8,582 nt of DNA, from assembly GCA_021159235.1 (NCBI GenBank), contig JAGGSF010000054.1, positions 1 to 8,582 on the forward strand, written 5' to 3'. Both the position numbers and the translations under genes were made by a program. The notes beneath the pieces were generated by a model. That model ran no database searches, was not told the DNA's origin, and was given only the letters and a program-made list of their open reading frames with translations. Of this stretch, positions 1,707-8,158 are shown piece after piece; the first letter of the stretch is position 1; each line of letters begins with the position of its first letter. The DNA is from Deltaproteobacteria bacterium (lineage in GTDB: Bacteria; Campylobacterota_A; Desulfurellia; JAGGSF01).

Positions 1707-3443
1707 ATGGAGAAGATGGTTACGTTAACTATAAATGGTGAACAGGTTACAGTTCCAGAGGGAACTACTATAATGGATGCCGCGAAGAAAGCTTATATCA
1801 ACATTCCGCATTTGTGTTTTCTTGAGGGACTTCAGGCCGAGGGTGCCTGTCGTGTGTGTGTGGTTGAAGTGGAAGGTGAACCGAGGTTGGTTCCTTCCTG
1901 TATGAGAGAAGTGCACGAAGGAATGAAGGTATATACCCATTCGGAAAGAGTGAGAAAGGCAAGAAGAATGATCGTTGAACTACTCTTAGCCAACCATCCT
2001 ACGGACTGTTTCACATGTGAGAGAAACCAGATCTGCGAGCTTTTAAAGCTGGCATACGAACTGGGAATAGATAAAATAAGGTTTGACGCAAAAAAACCGC
2101 AGTATGAGCTTGACGAAACAAGTCCTGCTGTTATAAGAAATCCAAATAAGTGCGTGCTCTGCGGAAGGTGCATCCGTGTCTGTCATGATGTACAAACAGT
2201 CAGGGTCATAGGATTTATCAACCGTGGAAGCGATACAAAGGTAGCTACATACTTGGAAAAGGGATTGGGTAATGTTCCATGCACAAACTGTGGTCAGTGC
2301 ATCCATGCCTGTCCAGTGGGAGCAATCAAAGAGAAATCTTATGTTGATGAAGTATGGGCAGCAATAGCAGATCCAGAGAAACATGTTGTTGTTCAGGAGG
2401 CACCGGCAATCAGAGCGGCTCTGGGTGAAGAGCTGGGTCTTCCTCCAGGAACACTCGTTGCAGGTAAAATGCACGCCGCATTAAGGAGACTGGGTTTTGA
2501 TATGGTGTTTGACACAAACTTCGCTGCTGATCTAACTATCATGGAGGAAGGTAGCGAACTCGTGGGTAGGATCACAGGCAAGATTAAGAAGCCCCTGCCT
2601 CAATTTACCTCCTGTTCGCCTGGCTGGATAAAATTTATGGAACATTTCTATCCCGATTTAATGGATCATGTCTCCAGTTGTAAATCCCCTCAACAGATGT
2701 TCGGTCCACTGGCAAAGACATACTATGCAGAAAAAGCGGGCATTGATCCAGCAAAGATTGTCTCTGTTTCCATTATGCCCTGTACCGCAAAGAAATATGA
2801 AGCTCAAAGACCGGAGATGAATGACTCGGGCTTTAGAGATGTGGACTATGTGCTTACCACAAGGGAACTTGCGCGGATGATTAAAGAAGCAGGAATTGAC
2901 TTTGCGAACCTGCCGGATGAACCAGCAGAACCCCTGATGGGTGTGTACACCGGTGCAGGAACCATCTTTGGAGCAACAGGTGGAGTAATGGAAGCAGCAC
3001 TCAGAACTGCCTATAAATTGGTTACAGGAAAAGAACTGGAGAAAATAGATATTGAACCGGTAAGGGGAATGGATGGAGTAAAAACTGCCACCGTGGATGT
3101 AAATGGCTTGGAGGTAAAGGTGGCTGTGGCTCATGGACTGGGTAATGCCAGGAAGCTTCTGGATGAGGTAAGAGAAGGTAAATCACCGTATCACTTTATT
3201 GAAATTATGGCCTGTCCTGGAGGATGCATCGGTGGTGGTGGACAACCAATCAGTTTTGACATGCCGCTCCGAAAGATGCGATGCGATGTTCTCTACAAAG
3301 AAGATAAACAGCTTCCATACAGAAGATCCCATGAAAATCCATCTATAAAGAAATTATACGAAGATTATCTGAAAGAACCCTTATCGGAGAAATCTCATCA
3401 CCTGCTGCATACAGAGTATACACGGAGAGAAATAGGGGGTTAA
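1707..3443 (+). CDS. hydA: [FeFe] hydrogenase catalytic subunit HydA (H-cluster)
   Basis: Catalytic subunit that interconverts protons and H2 at the H-cluster. It is 578 residues long, close to Clostridium pasteurianum CpI. Domains: N-terminal plant-type [2Fe-2S] (C37, C48, C51, C65); the NuoG-type His-Cys3 [4Fe-4S] site (H97, C101, C104, C110); two ferredoxin-like [4Fe-4S] sites (C149/C152/C155/C159 and C192/C195/C198/C202); then the H-cluster domain with L1 TSCSPGW (301-307), L2 MPCTAKK (357-363) and L3 with C503 and C507 in EIMACPGGCIGGGG. The C-terminus ends with the usual small-subunit-like tail (LYEDYL...SHHLLHT) and has no extra [2Fe-2S] domain. L1 has Ser where CpI has its second cysteine. 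Start: AGGAGG at 1696-1701 with 5-base spacing, the hydB TAA overlapping this site. No Tat signal, so cytoplasmic. Confidence 0.97.
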   Translation: MEKMVTLTINGEQVTVPEGTTIMDAAKKAYINIPHLCFLEGLQAEGACRVCVVEVEGEPRLVPSCMREVHEGMKVYTHSERVRKARRMIVELLLANHPTDCFTCERNQICELLKLAYELGIDKIRFDAKKPQYELDETSPAVIRNPNKCVLCGRCIRVCHDVQTVRVIGFINRGSDTKVATYLEKGLGNVPCTNCGQCIHACPVGAIKEKSYVDEVWAAIADPEKHVVVQEAPAIRAALGEELGLPPGTLVAGKMHAALRRLGFDMVFDTNFAADLTIMEEGSELVGRITGKIKKPLPQFTSCSPGWIKFMEHFYPDLMDHVSSCKSPQQMFGPLAKTYYAEKAGIDPAKIVSVSIMPCTAKKYEAQRPEMNDSGFRDVDYVLTTRELARMIKEAGIDFANLPDEPAEPLMGVYTGAGTIFGATGGVMEAALRTAYKLVTGKELEKIDIEPVRGMDGVKTATVDVNGLEVKVAVAHGLGNARKLLDEVREGKSPYHFIEIMACPGGCIGGGGQPISFDMPLRKMRCDVLYKEDKQLPYRRSHENPSIKKLYEDYLKEPLSEKSHHLLHTEYTRREIGG

Positions 3444-3477: not shown

Positions 3478-3547
3478 CGGAACCTGCGGTGAGGGTTTTT
3501 CCGAAACCAAGGGTTGGGATGAAAACTTTAAGCCCAGACCCTCACCG
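3478..3547 (+). promoter_or_regulatory. Candidate attenuator leader with antiterminator helix (hydA to TM1266-like gene)
   Basis: Bases 3487-3495 (CGGTGAGGG) are perfectly complementary to 3539-3547 (CCCTCACCG), a 9-bp helix that uses the base of the 5' arm and the whole loop side of the terminator at 3530-3560. The two folds therefore exclude each other. A further competing pairing is 3511-3518 (GGGTTGGG) with 3533-3541, with one bulge. CGGAA at 3478-3482 can pair with TTCCG at 3499-3503, which would hide part of the antiterminator strand. This is the architecture of a transcription attenuator or riboswitch expression platform. It matches none of the riboswitch consensus sequences I recall. 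The ligand or factor is unknown. Confidence 0.5.
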
Positions 3548-3569
3548 GGGGTCTGGGCTTTTTGTTTTT
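3530..3569 (+). terminator. Strong intrinsic terminator before TM1266-like gene
   Basis: A perfect 12-bp GC-rich stem (3530-3541 with 3549-3560, AAGCCCAGACCC against GGGTCTGGGCTT) encloses a 7-base loop and is followed by a T-rich tail to 3569 (TTT-G-TTTTT). It ends the hydCBA transcript. Because the next gene starts only 3 bases after the T tail, readthrough here would also control the maturation genes. Confidence 0.9.
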
Positions 3570-3572
3570 AAA

Positions 3573-3824
3573 ATGAAACGGGTAGGTTTTATAGGAATAG
3601 TTGTTGAAAATAGAAAAAGATGTGCACCAAAGGTAAACGAACTGCTTTCCGAATATGGAGATATCATCGTTGGAAGAATGGGAATTCCATATCCAAAAAG
3701 AGACATCAATGTAATCACACTGATTGTGGATGGAACAACAGATGAAATTGGAGCTCTAACGGGAAAGTTGGGGATGATTAAAGGTGTAACGGTGAAATCT
3801 GGCTTGAGTAAGATAAATGAGTAA
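3573..3824 (+). CDS. TM1266-family putative iron-only hydrogenase system regulator
   Basis: An 83-residue protein of the TM1266 family, a small ACT/NikR-C-terminal-like ferredoxin-fold domain usually found beside [FeFe]-hydrogenase maturation genes and annotated as a putative hydrogenase system regulator. Recognisable are the start MKRVGFIGIVVENR, the central YGDIIVGRMGIPYP, and LIVDGTTDEIGALTGKLG with VTVKSGLSK at the end. It has no DNA-binding domain, so direct transcription control is unproven. The ORF stays open upstream to GTG 3489, but those codons are the terminator hairpin and leader, and family proteins begin at about the ATG 3573 chosen here. No Shine-Dalgarno sequence is seen in the T-rich stretch before this ATG. 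An ATG at 3519 preceded by weak AAGGG is an alternative but unconvincing start. Confidence 0.88.
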   Translation: MKRVGFIGIVVENRKRCAPKVNELLSEYGDIIVGRMGIPYPKRDINVITLIVDGTTDEIGALTGKLGMIKGVTVKSGLSKINE

Positions 3825-3868: not shown

Positions 3869-3919
3869 ATGCTTTCACCATATAGGTTAACAGCTCTGGG
3901 GCGTAAAGGTTATGAATAA
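3869..3919 (+). CDS. Possible 16-codon leader ORF overlapping the hydF start
   Basis: A short ORF, ATG at 3869 with a GGTGG element a few bases upstream, reads MLSPYRLTALGRKGYE and ends at a TAA (3917-3919) 8 bases inside hydF. The stop falls just past the hydF ATG at 3912, an arrangement that permits translational coupling. Its own ATG lies in the loop of an imperfect hairpin (3859-3867 with 3872-3879, one bulged G). hydF itself has only a poorly spaced AAAGG (2 bases), which makes coupling plausible. It may equally be chance; nothing in the peptide is recognisable. Confidence 0.25.
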   Translation: MLSPYRLTALGRKGYE

Positions 3920-5192
3920 AACACCGAAAGGAAACAGACTGCATCTTGCTATATTTGGCAGAACAAATGTAGGTAAATCCAGCCTGCTTAATTTAATTGT
4001 GGGTCAGGATATAGCCATCACCTCTCCTGTTGCAGGCACCACTACAGATGTAGTTGAAAAGGCAATGGAACTTTTACCAATAGGACCGGTTTTATTCCTT
4101 GATACAGCGGGACTGGACGATACATCCTCCCTATCTGTTTTGAGATTGAAAAAAACCCAGAAGATATTTGAGAGAGCGGATGTAATTCTTCTCGTTGTGG
4201 AACCCGATATATGGACAGACTATGAAAAAAACATTGTGACTGAGGCAAAGAGAAGAAAGATACCCACCATAGGCATTATAAATAAGATAGATTTAAAAAA
4301 ACCGTCTTCGGACTTCTTAGAACATCTCAAAAAAGAAATAGGACATGTGGTTCCTGCATGCAGTATAGATTGGAAAAACAGGAACAGATATATAGAGCCC
4401 TTGAAGAAACACCTGCTTGAAGTCTGTCCTGATGACTTCATTTTACCACCCCCTTTAATTGGAGATCTTCTTCCCTCTGGAGGACTGGCAGTTTTAGTTG
4501 TTCCAATAGATTTAGAAGCACCGAAGGGGAGACTTATCCTTCCCCAGGTTCAAACCATAAGAAACGCTCTGGATAACGATGCGGCAGCCTTGGTGGTTAA
4601 GGAAAAAGACCTTGCCCGCATCTTAAGTACTTTGAATAGACCACCGGATATTGTGGTCTGTGATTCTCAGGTCGTGTTGAAGATGTGTGCAGATACACCA
4701 AAAAATGTTCCCTGCACCACATTTTCCATCCTTTTTGCCAGATACAAAGGAGACTTGATAGAGACGGTAAAGGGAGTAGCCCAAATAGAGAGACTGAAGC
4801 CTGGAGATAAGGTGTTGATTGCAGAGGCCTGTTCTCATCATCCTATTGGGGATGATATCGGGAGGGTAAAGATTCCCAGGTGGTTAAGACAACATGTGAG
4901 GGGTGATGTGGATGTAGATGTTTATGCAGGAAGAGACTATCCTGAAAATCTCAAAGAATACAAACTGATCATTCACTGTGGAGCCTGTATGCTCACCAGG
5001 AGGGAAATGTTAAACAGGATTCAAAAGGCAAGGGAGGCAGGTGTCCCCATTACAAACTATGGGGTGTGTATATCGTTTGTGCAGGGTGTTTTGGCAAGAA
5101 CACTTTCCCCCTTCCCTGCAGCAAAAATTACTTTTGAAAGAGAAATGAAGAACATAAAGGAGGATTTAGATGAGCGTGCAGTTAGCTTATGA
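3912..5192 (+). CDS. hydF: [FeFe] hydrogenase H-cluster maturation GTPase HydF
   Basis: Scaffold protein on which the diiron subcluster is assembled before transfer to apo-HydA. It has 426 residues in the usual three parts. GTPase domain: P-loop GRTNVGKSS (16-24), switch threonines in AGTTTD (41-46), DTAGLDD (64-70) and NKID (124-127). A middle dimerisation domain covers about residues 180-290. The C-terminal [4Fe-4S] domain has C307 and H309 (ACSHHPIGDDIGR) and HCGAC (H355, C356, C359), matching the family pattern CxH...HCxxC. The start MNKTPKGNRLHLAIFG is the usual HydF N-terminus. A weak AAAGG lies 2 bases before the ATG, and an 87-base gap separates it from the TM1266-like gene. The last 23 bases overlap hydG. 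Confidence 0.96.
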   Translation: MNKTPKGNRLHLAIFGRTNVGKSSLLNLIVGQDIAITSPVAGTTTDVVEKAMELLPIGPVLFLDTAGLDDTSSLSVLRLKKTQKIFERADVILLVVEPDIWTDYEKNIVTEAKRRKIPTIGIINKIDLKKPSSDFLEHLKKEIGHVVPACSIDWKNRNRYIEPLKKHLLEVCPDDFILPPPLIGDLLPSGGLAVLVVPIDLEAPKGRLILPQVQTIRNALDNDAAALVVKEKDLARILSTLNRPPDIVVCDSQVVLKMCADTPKNVPCTTFSILFARYKGDLIETVKGVAQIERLKPGDKVLIAEACSHHPIGDDIGRVKIPRWLRQHVRGDVDVDVYAGRDYPENLKEYKLIIHCGACMLTRREMLNRIQKAREAGVPITNYGVCISFVQGVLARTLSPFPAAKITFEREMKNIKEDLDERAVSL

Positions 5193-6684
5193 TCTTAGCA
5201 AAACAGAAAAAAGATGGATGGAAAATGTTATCAAAGAAAACGAAATCACAAGGTATATGGAGAATGGAAGAGACTTCATCAATGATGAGGAAATCTGGGA
5301 AAAGTTAAGGAAAAATAGAAAGCCAGAACCACAGAGGATAAGAGACATCCTCCAAAAATCACTGGCAGTAGAAACCCTGGAACCGGATGAAACAGCAGCG
5401 TTGCTCAATGTGGAAGATGAAGAGTTATGGGAAGAGATGTTTGAGACGGCAGGTAAAGTAAAGAAAAAGGTTTATGATAATCGAATTGTAACCTTTGCTC
5501 CTCTGTACTGTAGCAACTTATGTGTGAACAACTGCCTGTATTGTGGATTCAGAAGAGAGAACAAGGCTGAAAAAAGAAGAAGACTAACACTGGAAGAGAT
5601 AAAGAATGAAGCAAGGGTTCTGGCAGGTGAAATTGGACACAAGCGTCTCATTGTAGTGTATGGAGAACATCCACTCTCGGATGCAAGATACATTGCAGAT
5701 ACGATAAGAACCATTTACGATGTGAAGGTGAAAACAAGAAAGGGATTTGGGCAGATCAGGCGGGTCAATGTAAATGCCGCACCGATGTGCATTGATGATC
5801 TAAAGATGTTGAAAGATGTAGGAATCGGAACCTATCAAGTGTTTCAGGAAACTTATCACCACGAAACTTATAGAAAGGTTCATCCTGCAGGAACCATAAA
5901 ATCCAACTACGGATGGAGACTCTACTGTCACCACAGGGCACTGGAAGCGGAGGTTGATGATGTAGCTATCGGCGTTCTATTTGGATTGTATGATTGGAGA
6001 TTTGAGGTGATGGGACTTCTGTATCATGCACGAGATTTGGAAAAACACTTCAACGGTATAGGACCGCATACCATCTCCTTTCCACGTTTAGAACCGGCAG
6101 CAAATACCCCCTTTATTCAGCAGACAGAATACAAAGTTTCAGATGAAGACTTCAAAAAGATAATAGCGGTCATTAGGCTTTCCGTTCCCTACACCGGTAT
6201 GATACTCACTGCCAGGGAACCTGCAGAGATCAGAAGAGAAGTTATACCACTGGGATGCACACAAACTGATGCCTCCACAAGGATTGGCATCGGTGCTTAC
6301 AGCGACAGGTATAATGAACAGGAGGCGGAGAGACAGCAGTTTTTGCTGGGGGACACGAGAAGCCTGGATGAGGTGATTAGAGAGCTTGCCGAGATGGGTT
6401 ATATAACATCCTTCTGCACGGCAGGTTACAGATGTGGAAGAACAGGTGAACACATCATGAAGCTTCTGAGATGCGGAAGAGAAGGTAAATTCTGTAAACT
6501 CAATGCCATCCTTACATTCAGGGAGTGGCTGGATGACTTTGCATCTGAAGAAACAAAGAAAGCAGGAGAAAAGGTCATAGAAAAGGAAATAAGAGAGGTT
6601 AAAGAACAGATGCCGGAGGTGTATCCAACACTCATGGAATACTACACAAGGATTGAAAATGGAGAAAGAGACCTCTACTTCTAA
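5170..6684 (+). CDS. hydG: [FeFe] hydrogenase H-cluster maturase HydG (radical SAM tyrosine lyase)
   Basis: Radical SAM enzyme that cleaves tyrosine to p-cresol and supplies the CO and CN ligands of the H-cluster via an Fe(CO)2(CN)-cysteine synthon. The radical SAM motif is CVNNCLYC (C118, C122, C125; CX3CX2C), in the HydG/ThiH-type context YCSNLCVNNCLYCGF. The protein is 504 residues, slightly long, and the extra length includes an N-terminal lead-in. The C-terminal auxiliary-cluster region reads FCTAGYRCGRTG then KFCKLNAILT. C416 and C442 are in place, but the middle cysteine of CX2CX22C is Gly419, with a new cysteine at 422. ThiH lacks this C-terminal extension, so HydG is favoured, and the flanking hydF and hydE agree. 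The start ATG has AGGAGG at 5158-5163 with 6-base spacing, inside the end of hydF. Confidence 0.95.
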   Translation: MSVQLAYDLSKTEKRWMENVIKENEITRYMENGRDFINDEEIWEKLRKNRKPEPQRIRDILQKSLAVETLEPDETAALLNVEDEELWEEMFETAGKVKKKVYDNRIVTFAPLYCSNLCVNNCLYCGFRRENKAEKRRRLTLEEIKNEARVLAGEIGHKRLIVVYGEHPLSDARYIADTIRTIYDVKVKTRKGFGQIRRVNVNAAPMCIDDLKMLKDVGIGTYQVFQETYHHETYRKVHPAGTIKSNYGWRLYCHHRALEAEVDDVAIGVLFGLYDWRFEVMGLLYHARDLEKHFNGIGPHTISFPRLEPAANTPFIQQTEYKVSDEDFKKIIAVIRLSVPYTGMILTAREPAEIRREVIPLGCTQTDASTRIGIGAYSDRYNEQEAERQQFLLGDTRSLDEVIRELAEMGYITSFCTAGYRCGRTGEHIMKLLRCGREGKFCKLNAILTFREWLDDFASEETKKAGEKVIEKEIREVKEQMPEVYPTLMEYYTRIENGERDLYF

Positions 6685-6943
6685 AGATAGGTTGATTGCA
6701 AAGTTTATGGAGATAATAGAACTTATAAAGAAAGAATACAATGTTAATATATGGCTGGTTGAAATTCTGGGGAAGAGGTGGTCCTATATTGCCGGAGAAA
6801 GGGAAGACTCCCTCCTCCCCCCCGAGCGCATCCAGTTGAATGAGAGATTCGGTGTAGTGTCAAACAACTGGGAAAGAATACCACCTGAGGAAAGAGAAAA
6901 TATTATTTCTTCTTTAAAGAAAATAATAGAAACATATGGATAA
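6659..6943 (+). CDS. Unidentified 94-residue protein between HydG and HydE
   Basis: I do not recognise this protein. It has no cysteine, no signal peptide and no membrane segment. It is rich in Lys and Glu, with a likely N-terminal helix (DRLIAKFMEIIELIKKEY), a central possibly beta-strand segment with tryptophans (NIWLVEILGKRWSYIAGE), and a likely C-terminal helix (PEERENIISSLKKIIETYG). The ATG at 6659 has AAGGA 6 bases upstream, so it is preferred over an in-frame TTG at 6653. It overlaps the end of hydG by 26 bases and hydE by 8 bases, so it is co-translated with both maturases. The open frame, good start signal and double overlap make it a real gene. A role in H-cluster maturation is inference from position only. 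Absence of cysteine argues against an FeS protein. Confidence 0.75.
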   Translation: MEKETSTSKDRLIAKFMEIIELIKKEYNVNIWLVEILGKRWSYIAGEREDSLLPPERIQLNERFGVVSNNWERIPPEERENIISSLKKIIETYG

Positions 6944-7967
6944 AAAAGAAATTCTACACTATCTGAAAACATCATCTGAGGACGAAACATTATTCCAGAA
7001 AGCTGATTATGTAAGGAAGAGATACTGTGGAGATGAGGTGCATATAAGGGGTATAATTGAATTTTCCAATCATTGCTGTAGAAGCTGCCTCTACTGTGGT
7101 CTGAGGAAGGAAAACAAAAAACTAAAGAGATACAGAATGAGTGAAGATGAAATAGTGGCGCTGGCATTGAGAATTGCATCATACGGTGTGAAAACAATAG
7201 TGCTTCAATCAGGGGATGATTTTTACTACAGCCGCTCCATGATTTGTAACATTGTTCAAAACATAAAAAAAGAAGCAGATGTTGCCATTACTCTGAGTAT
7301 TGGAGAAAGACCTCTGGATGACTACAGGGCGTTCAAAGACTCAGGAACAGACAGATACCTGCTGAAACACGAAACAGTCAATGAAAAATTGTATAAAAGG
7401 CTTCACCCCGGTCAATCTCTTAAGAAAAGACTGAAAATCTTAGAACACCTGAAAAAACTGGGTTACCAGACAGGAGCAGGAAATATCGTTGGACTGCCCG
7501 GGCAGACTCTGGAAGACCTCTGCGAAGATATACTGTTTTTTAAGAGATTTGATCCAGATATGATAGGTATTGGTCCCTTTATTCCTCAGAAAGATACTCC
7601 TCTTTCTACTTTTCCTCAAGGGAGTTTCTTGCTTACACTGAAGGTTCTGGCACTCACAAGAATAACTACATTAAACAGTCATATTCCCGCGACAACAGCA
7701 CTGGCTACAGTAGAGCCTGATGGACAATTCATGGGATTAAAAGCAGGTGCAAATGTTATTATGCCGGATTTCACACCTTCCAACTACAGAAAGAATTATA
7801 CAATCTACGACAATAAAGCCCATATTACATTAGAGAAAGCAAAAGAGACGATTTTTAAAGCAGGTAGGATAATTTCTACTGATAAGGGACACTCCTTAAA
7901 AAGACTTAATGAGTCTAAATATTCAGCCATCATGGAGAATAAAGTGTCACACTCTTTTATCTATTAA
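6936..7967 (+). CDS. hydE: [FeFe] hydrogenase H-cluster maturase HydE (radical SAM)
   Basis: Radical SAM enzyme that processes the HydG product on the way to the diiron subcluster with its azadithiolate bridge. It has 343 residues, near the usual 350. The radical SAM cysteines are C47, C51 and C54 in CCRSCLYCGLR (CX3CX2C). Further family segments are YRMSEDEIVALA, VLQSGDD, LSIGERP, LLKHETVNEKLYKRLHPG and TGAGNIVGLPGQTLEDL. The fold is BioB-like, and BioB or PylB are excluded mainly by the HydE-type segments and the hydFG context. The optional second FeS site of some HydE proteins is not evident. No Shine-Dalgarno sequence precedes the ATG. Its 8-base overlap with the upstream small gene suggests translation by coupling. 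Confidence 0.95.
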   Translation: MDKKEILHYLKTSSEDETLFQKADYVRKRYCGDEVHIRGIIEFSNHCCRSCLYCGLRKENKKLKRYRMSEDEIVALALRIASYGVKTIVLQSGDDFYYSRSMICNIVQNIKKEADVAITLSIGERPLDDYRAFKDSGTDRYLLKHETVNEKLYKRLHPGQSLKKRLKILEHLKKLGYQTGAGNIVGLPGQTLEDLCEDILFFKRFDPDMIGIGPFIPQKDTPLSTFPQGSFLLTLKVLALTRITTLNSHIPATTALATVEPDGQFMGLKAGANVIMPDFTPSNYRKNYTIYDNKAHITLEKAKETIFKAGRIISTDKGHSLKRLNESKYSAIMENKVSHSFIY

Positions 7968-8092: not shown

Positions 8093-8158
8093 ATGGCTGA
8101 GGTTTTGTGGAAATCAAAGGTAGAAGATGCAATTAAAAGTTACGGAAAGGGAATATGA
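8093..8158 (+). pseudogene. Truncated duplicate hydC start, 21 codons then TGA
   Basis: ATG with a ribosome site and strong promoter reads MAEVLWKSKVEDAIKSYGKG, identical to the start inferred for hydC, then I and a stop TGA at 8156-8158. All of the thioredoxin-like fold and the cluster cysteines are missing, so no functional HydC can be made. The reading frame continues after the TGA directly into formate dehydrogenase-like sequence, so the two remnants are joined in the same frame. It is either a real recombination product or a chimeric assembly joint. Confidence 0.7.
8097..8151 (+). repeat. 55-base direct repeat, copy 2 (truncated hydC 5' end)
   Basis: Second copy of window bases 1-55, here with its ATG (8093), ribosome site and promoter in view. 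Identity stops at 8151, where formate dehydrogenase-like sequence begins. Confidence 0.98.

Follow-up and report, generated by a model that had tools for sequence, protein, structure and literature searches.

A small hydG-linked gene that belongs to a previously undescribed family and probably has been overlooked as a helper in the HydG step

Three genes, hydG among them, are known to be responsible for assembly of the active site in [FeFe]-hydrogenases. Maturation is commonly ascribed to a closed set, i.e., HydE, HydF and HydG plus the glycine-cleavage H-protein, and both the route by which the product of HydG reaches HydE and the reloading of HydG are still being worked out. HydE from Thermotoga maritima is a long-standing structural model in this field. 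In addition, hyd operons encode small uncharacterised proteins of the TM1266 family (TIGR03959/PF21699). The portions of the recent literature considered here attribute maturation to HydE, HydF, HydG and aminomethyl-lipoyl H-protein (PMC12752695) and add aspartate ammonia-lyase and the glycine cleavage H-protein as maturation partners (PMC11736057, PMC12752695). The latter two are precedents for extra genes that feed maturation.

The gene described here, termed X, resembles the established maturase genes in that it resides in the same operon, where it overlaps hydG as well as hydE. On the other hand, the encoded protein of 94 residues is not homologous to HydE, HydF or HydG and lacks radical SAM, GTPase or Fe-S features: the copy under study contains no cysteine, no P-loop motif and no match to TIGR03955, TIGR03956 or TIGR03918. 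Furthermore, X is confined to one section of the HydG tree and lacking in the majority of the HydG-bearing lineages sampled. With the TM1266 family it shares small size and occurrence in hyd operons, but X matches neither TIGR03959 nor PF21699 and genes for both proteins coexist in one operon. Identity of X with the TM1266 regulator was rejected on the same grounds, i.e., the separate position of the TM1266-family gene and the lack of a profile match for X, for which NCBIfam yielded nothing and Pfam just a 12-bit match to UME. Aspartate ammonia-lyase and H-protein, finally, are known enzymes supplying the DTMA ligand, while X is unrelated to them and linked to hydG; aspA is located in the same cluster as X at two loci (L013, L095). 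Aspartase-like genes of the hyd cluster and, on the L013 contig, genes for glycine-cleavage proteins H and T were noted at L013:808-2193, L013:11188-12716 and L095:90-1499. Neither an aspartase-like gene nor a glycine-cleavage H or T gene is present in the stretch of DNA analyzed here.

This stretch, in the following called the window, comprises 8,582 nucleotides and constitutes the entire contig C48 of a 1.13 Mb assembly. Its features are collected in Table 1; open reading frames identified by eye further included nuoE-like and nuoF-like genes. The first 55 bases of the contig (1-55) are repeated exactly at 8097-8151 and are followed there by sequence unrelated to the operon, which probably reflects an assembly artefact at the contig end or duplication of the beginning of the first gene. 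The 3' end of hydE (7700-7967) does not encode the C-terminal cysteine cluster that is found in the Thermotoga-like HydE of locus L025 (CVFEKDTACIPC) and also in HydE of L013 (CIFENADHCHSC), and the auxiliary Fe-S cluster is therefore probably missing from the window protein.

Table 1. Features of the hyd operon and of gene X in the window.
Feature	Position	Strand	Basis or remark
[FeFe]-hydrogenase group A6 catalytic subunit	1707..3443	+	NF040763; the genome's only Fe_hyd_lg_C match
TM1266-family putative regulator	3489..3824	+	TIGR03959/PF21699, 118 bits; gene separate from X
hydF	3912..5192	+	TIGR03918, 542 bits
hydG	5170..6684	+	TIGR03955, 465 bits
Probable ribosome site of X, AAGGA	6648..6652	+	within hydG, 6 nt 5' of ATG
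Gene X	6659..6943	+	94-aa ORF; member of undescribed HydG-linked protein family
Overlap hydG/X, 26 nt	6659..6684	+	hydG C-terminus GERDLYF-stop; X N-terminus MEKETSTSK
Overlap X 3' end/hydE start, 8 nt	6936..6943	+	hydE without own ribosome site
hydE	6936..7967	+	TIGR03956, 357 bits
X family motif E-x-[LIM]-G-[RK]-R-[WIL]-[SA]			homologues adjoining hydG, purifying selection

A preliminary description of the window, made from the DNA alone, had reported the open reading frame of X with its two overlaps and had stated that hydE is not preceded by its own ribosome site. Translation and coordinates confirm the former and inspection of the 22 nt upstream of hydE (TTAAAGAAAATAATAGAAACAT), in which no Shine-Dalgarno-like sequence is present, the latter. 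Dependence of hydE translation on that of X is plausible. The frame of X is open upstream as far as a TTG at 6653, but it is the ATG at 6659 that a good ribosome site precedes. Codons for the conserved C-terminus of HydG double as codons for the N-terminus of X, and a comparable overlap exists in many homologues. That X is free of cysteine holds true for the window copy (none among 94 residues) and not for the family, because several homologues contain this amino acid, e.g., in LCELLGRRW or WVCEKIGRR.

X had also been presented as an unrecognised gene. Indeed, neither window X alone nor a family of 29 members gave a convincing match in Pfam, NCBIfam or PDB sequences, and yet a conserved family exists. 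The first good relative, found by direct search in genome G034 (37% identity over 66 residues, E 7e-8), again sits between hydG and hydE, and more relatives occur in the family to which that genome belongs. Window X matches the 29-member profile, which includes it, at E 6e-26, with a G-[RK]-R core and a frame directly after hydG. Relatives are likewise present in a Desulfurobacterium metagenome-assembled genome and in 'Thermotogae bacterium S016_39' (63% identical), where the gene order is TM1266-like, aspartase, hydF, hydG, X, hydE. Profile searches revealed X throughout the phylum of the latter, taken to be Thermotogota. Presumably, TM1268 is the gene to be expected between TM1267 (HydG) and TM1269 (HydE), and we take X of genome G251 to be probably the TM1268 locus of T. 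maritima MSB8. Among open-licence papers, mostly represented by their abstracts, none was found that names a small gene of this kind, and the string TM1268 led to an unrelated usage for worms. Three candidates (L003, L009, L010) were rejected as homologues, being weak matches within unrelated genes.

As homologues occupy the same position in many bacterial groups, the reading frame is not a product of chance. Purifying selection, looked for as a possible point of refutation, is present: dN/dS amounts to 0.02-0.05 among Thermotoga-like pairs (codons in the overlap excluded), 0.054 for the Desulfurobacteriaceae-like loci L005 and L006 and approximately 0.13 for the window compared with its closest relative L013, all values being rough with dS high and near saturation. 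X is a real, conserved gene under strong purifying selection and represents a previously unnamed and undescribed gene family. As it is found behind hydG in dozens of bacteria that are only distantly related, it probably assists the HydG step as a helper overlooked so far. The strength of selection on the protein sequence speaks against the idea that X mainly opens the hydE start by being translated, or that its protein controls hyd expression. The missing ribosome site of hydE and the overlap of X with both neighbours would agree with such a role, but X is kept where hydE does not follow, it matches no DNA-binding family at a convincing score and the TM1266-like regulator is encoded by another gene, so that we judge an effect of this type to be very improbable.

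The link of X to hydG was assessed in 386 genomes, a domain-wide sample spread by kinship, and 95 of these genomes contain hydG. At E<=5e-4, X occurs in 17 of the 386 genomes, all of them among the 95 and each time with X adjoining a hydG, while at the same threshold X was found in none of the hydG-less genomes of the sample. When 60 hydG 3' flanks were scanned locally with the same profile, two peaks resulted, one of flanks with X (E<4e-7) and one of flanks without it (E>0.1). This local scan also yielded a diverged copy (L147 in G329, E 0.001) as the eighteenth X-bearing genome. In eight of these 18 genomes X is followed by hydE. In the remaining ten, hydE does not adjoin X (L088, L091-L093, L095-L097, L128, L129, and L147), and in some it is separated from X by tens of kilobases or placed on a different contig. 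A hydE match was detected elsewhere in all ten, although in G326 it is partial only, and every one of 16 X-bearing genomes tested has a match to hydE. In one genome (G454), X adjoins a hydG that is broken by a frameshift (L096/L132 on G454:C1), while a different contig carries an intact hydG with hydE but no X behind it; we regard G454:C1 as a decaying X-type hydG locus.

Within the Thermotogota, hydG is encoded in 70 of 103 genomes and hydE in the same 70. All 31 matches to X at E<1e-3 lie directly behind hydG according to coordinate comparison. With the 29-member profile and reading of open reading frames, X directly follows hydG in 56 of the 70 hydG-bearing genomes (45 by coordinate comparison, three by ORF reading and eight in a further step), and every hydG locus of this phylum that has room for X carries it. 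The other 14 genomes (G198-G211) are related to one another and constitute a natural absence set: hydG is directly followed by hydE with a short gap, and X is found nowhere in them at E<=0.01. A further arrangement, hydE, hydG, X, occurs in G249.

Thus, in the Thermotogota as well as in the 386-genome sample, convincing homologues of X all adjoin an H-cluster maturation gene, and a location mostly away from such genes, looked for as a refutation, is not the case. Since X keeps its place behind hydG in genomes that have hydE at another site, it is tied to hydG and not to the hydG/hydE pair; judged from gene neighbourhoods, hydG is the constant partner of X. This has consequences for the proposal in the preliminary description that X is a partner joining HydG and HydE, i.e., a scaffold on which the HydG product would pass directly to HydE. 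X indeed sits exactly between the two genes, frequently with overlaps, in the window, the Thermotogota, the Desulfurobacteriaceae-like bacteria and several others, and the presence of hydE in the X-bearing genomes tested would suit a scaffold as well. However, X follows hydG without an adjoining hydE in at least ten genomes as well as in G249, where hydE precedes hydG, and hydG and hydE stand side by side without X in the 14 Thermotogota genomes. Gene order argues for a link to hydG alone and lends no specific support to the joining of both enzymes, and we consider a scaffold function improbable.

In the phylum of the window, X occurs in one of 25 genomes, namely that of the window itself, and HydG above the family cut-off was found neither in the two genomes of the same genus nor in the other phylum members tested. 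The contig is slightly richer in GC (0.418) than ten other contigs of the genome (0.370-0.404) and its tetranucleotide composition is shifted. This mildly atypical composition is compatible with horizontal transfer and with misbinning, and the operon may have been acquired horizontally or the contig may have been misbinned. The result for the X family is independent of the origin of this contig. Linked genes travel together and the window operon looks transferred, as would be expected for a small gene of unrelated role that is merely carried along by inheritance of hydG-linked operons. Against such a passenger, which we hold to be very doubtful, speak the restriction of X to hydG-bearing genomes of the sample at E<=5e-4 and the persistence of X next to hydG in surroundings where hydE and further adjoining genes vary.

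Phylogenetic analysis of HydG (73 rows) placed all 29 X-bearing loci within one group of 38 rows (SH-aLRT 99), and none of the 35 rows outside this group bears X. The presence of X requires six changes on this tree vs. 23 in shuffles; the tree is a quick one in which several forks have values below 80. The pattern fits a single gain of X followed by several losses. Residues A348, D367 and I372 of window HydG are fixed in the 38-row group and different in nearly all other HydG proteins. As they are common to X-less members of the group, these columns may be markers of a HydG subtype, and none of the HydG columns distinguished members with X from those lacking it at the thresholds applied.

An AlphaFold2 model of X, built from three sequences (window, L012 and L013) and no deep alignment, reached a pLDDT of 86 and a pTM of 0.73. 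It predicts an alpha-beta4-alpha arrangement (helix 8-27; strands 31-37, 40-46, 56-59 and 64-68; helix 76-93) with the invariant residues G38 and R40 at the tip of the first hairpin. A second model with L012 as the first sequence was poor (pLDDT 52) and agreed in outline only. Foldseek gave no match at E<=0.001, the best being DosP with E 0.097. In VIA-align a Loki roadblock protein scored best (Z 7.7, rmsd 2.2 over 76 residues), other top structures being Rag C-terminal domains, DosP and MglB; the scores of GAF and IclR domains are similar to those of roadblock, and Z values below 8 may reflect merely a common arrangement. The similarity in layout to the roadblock/LC7 and GAF domains of MglB, Rag and DosP reaches Z values of up to 7.7. 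X differs from them in being shorter, in its helix-beta4-helix layout and in the lack of significant Foldseek or sequence matches; at E<=1, none of 29 family members matched a roadblock model of Pfam or NCBIfam. The fold of roadblock/LC7 proteins is helix-beta2-helix-beta3-helix and dimeric, and the model of X is that of a single chain. The layout hints at roadblock/GAF domains as nearest neighbours and is too weak for a claim of kinship. Roadblock domains such as those listed are partners of small GTPases and HydF is a GTPase encoded upstream of X, so that X could conceivably bind the GTPase domain of HydF and tune the GTP-dependent docking of HydG and HydE on HydF. Given the weak structural scores, their equal height for GAF and IclR, and a gene link with hydG rather than hydF, we rate such an activity as quite improbable.

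The reading that we favour, with a little more confidence than doubt, is that X acts as a lineage-specific accessory protein dedicated to the HydG step, which is translated with hydG and most likely binds HydG. With its start codon inside the end of hydG, X would probably be made together with HydG. It would most likely bind HydG, probably via the basic, conserved tip (G-[RK]-R-[WI]-S) of the hairpin that connects strands 1 and 2, and could stabilise HydG or aid its turnover, be it by cysteine/iron loading or by setting the Fe(CO)2(CN)-cysteine synthon free for HydE. We infer both the physical contact and the step that is helped: operon linkage alone does not prove that X binds HydG, and genes overlapping in this way are co-inherited even without physical contact. 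A more far-reaching and rather unlikely variant is that X serves as a fourth dedicated H-cluster maturation protein of one HydG lineage, which loads HydG with iron and cysteine or carries the Fe(CO)2(CN) synthon to HydE, a hand-over that other lineages manage without X. Most HydG proteins sampled and 14 Thermotogota genomes do without X and published accounts of maturation make no use of it; X is therefore, as far as its distribution tells, optional and not generally essential to maturation. Of the new accessory factor of H-cluster assembly originally envisaged, the undescribed, conserved and hydG-linked gene stands, the accessory role would be that of an optional helper.

Taken together, X offers a missing part that lends itself to easy testing. 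It is coupled to hydG and inherited along with it in different phyla, apparently also in Thermotoga maritima, and it may bear on the variable maturation yields obtained with thermophilic maturases.
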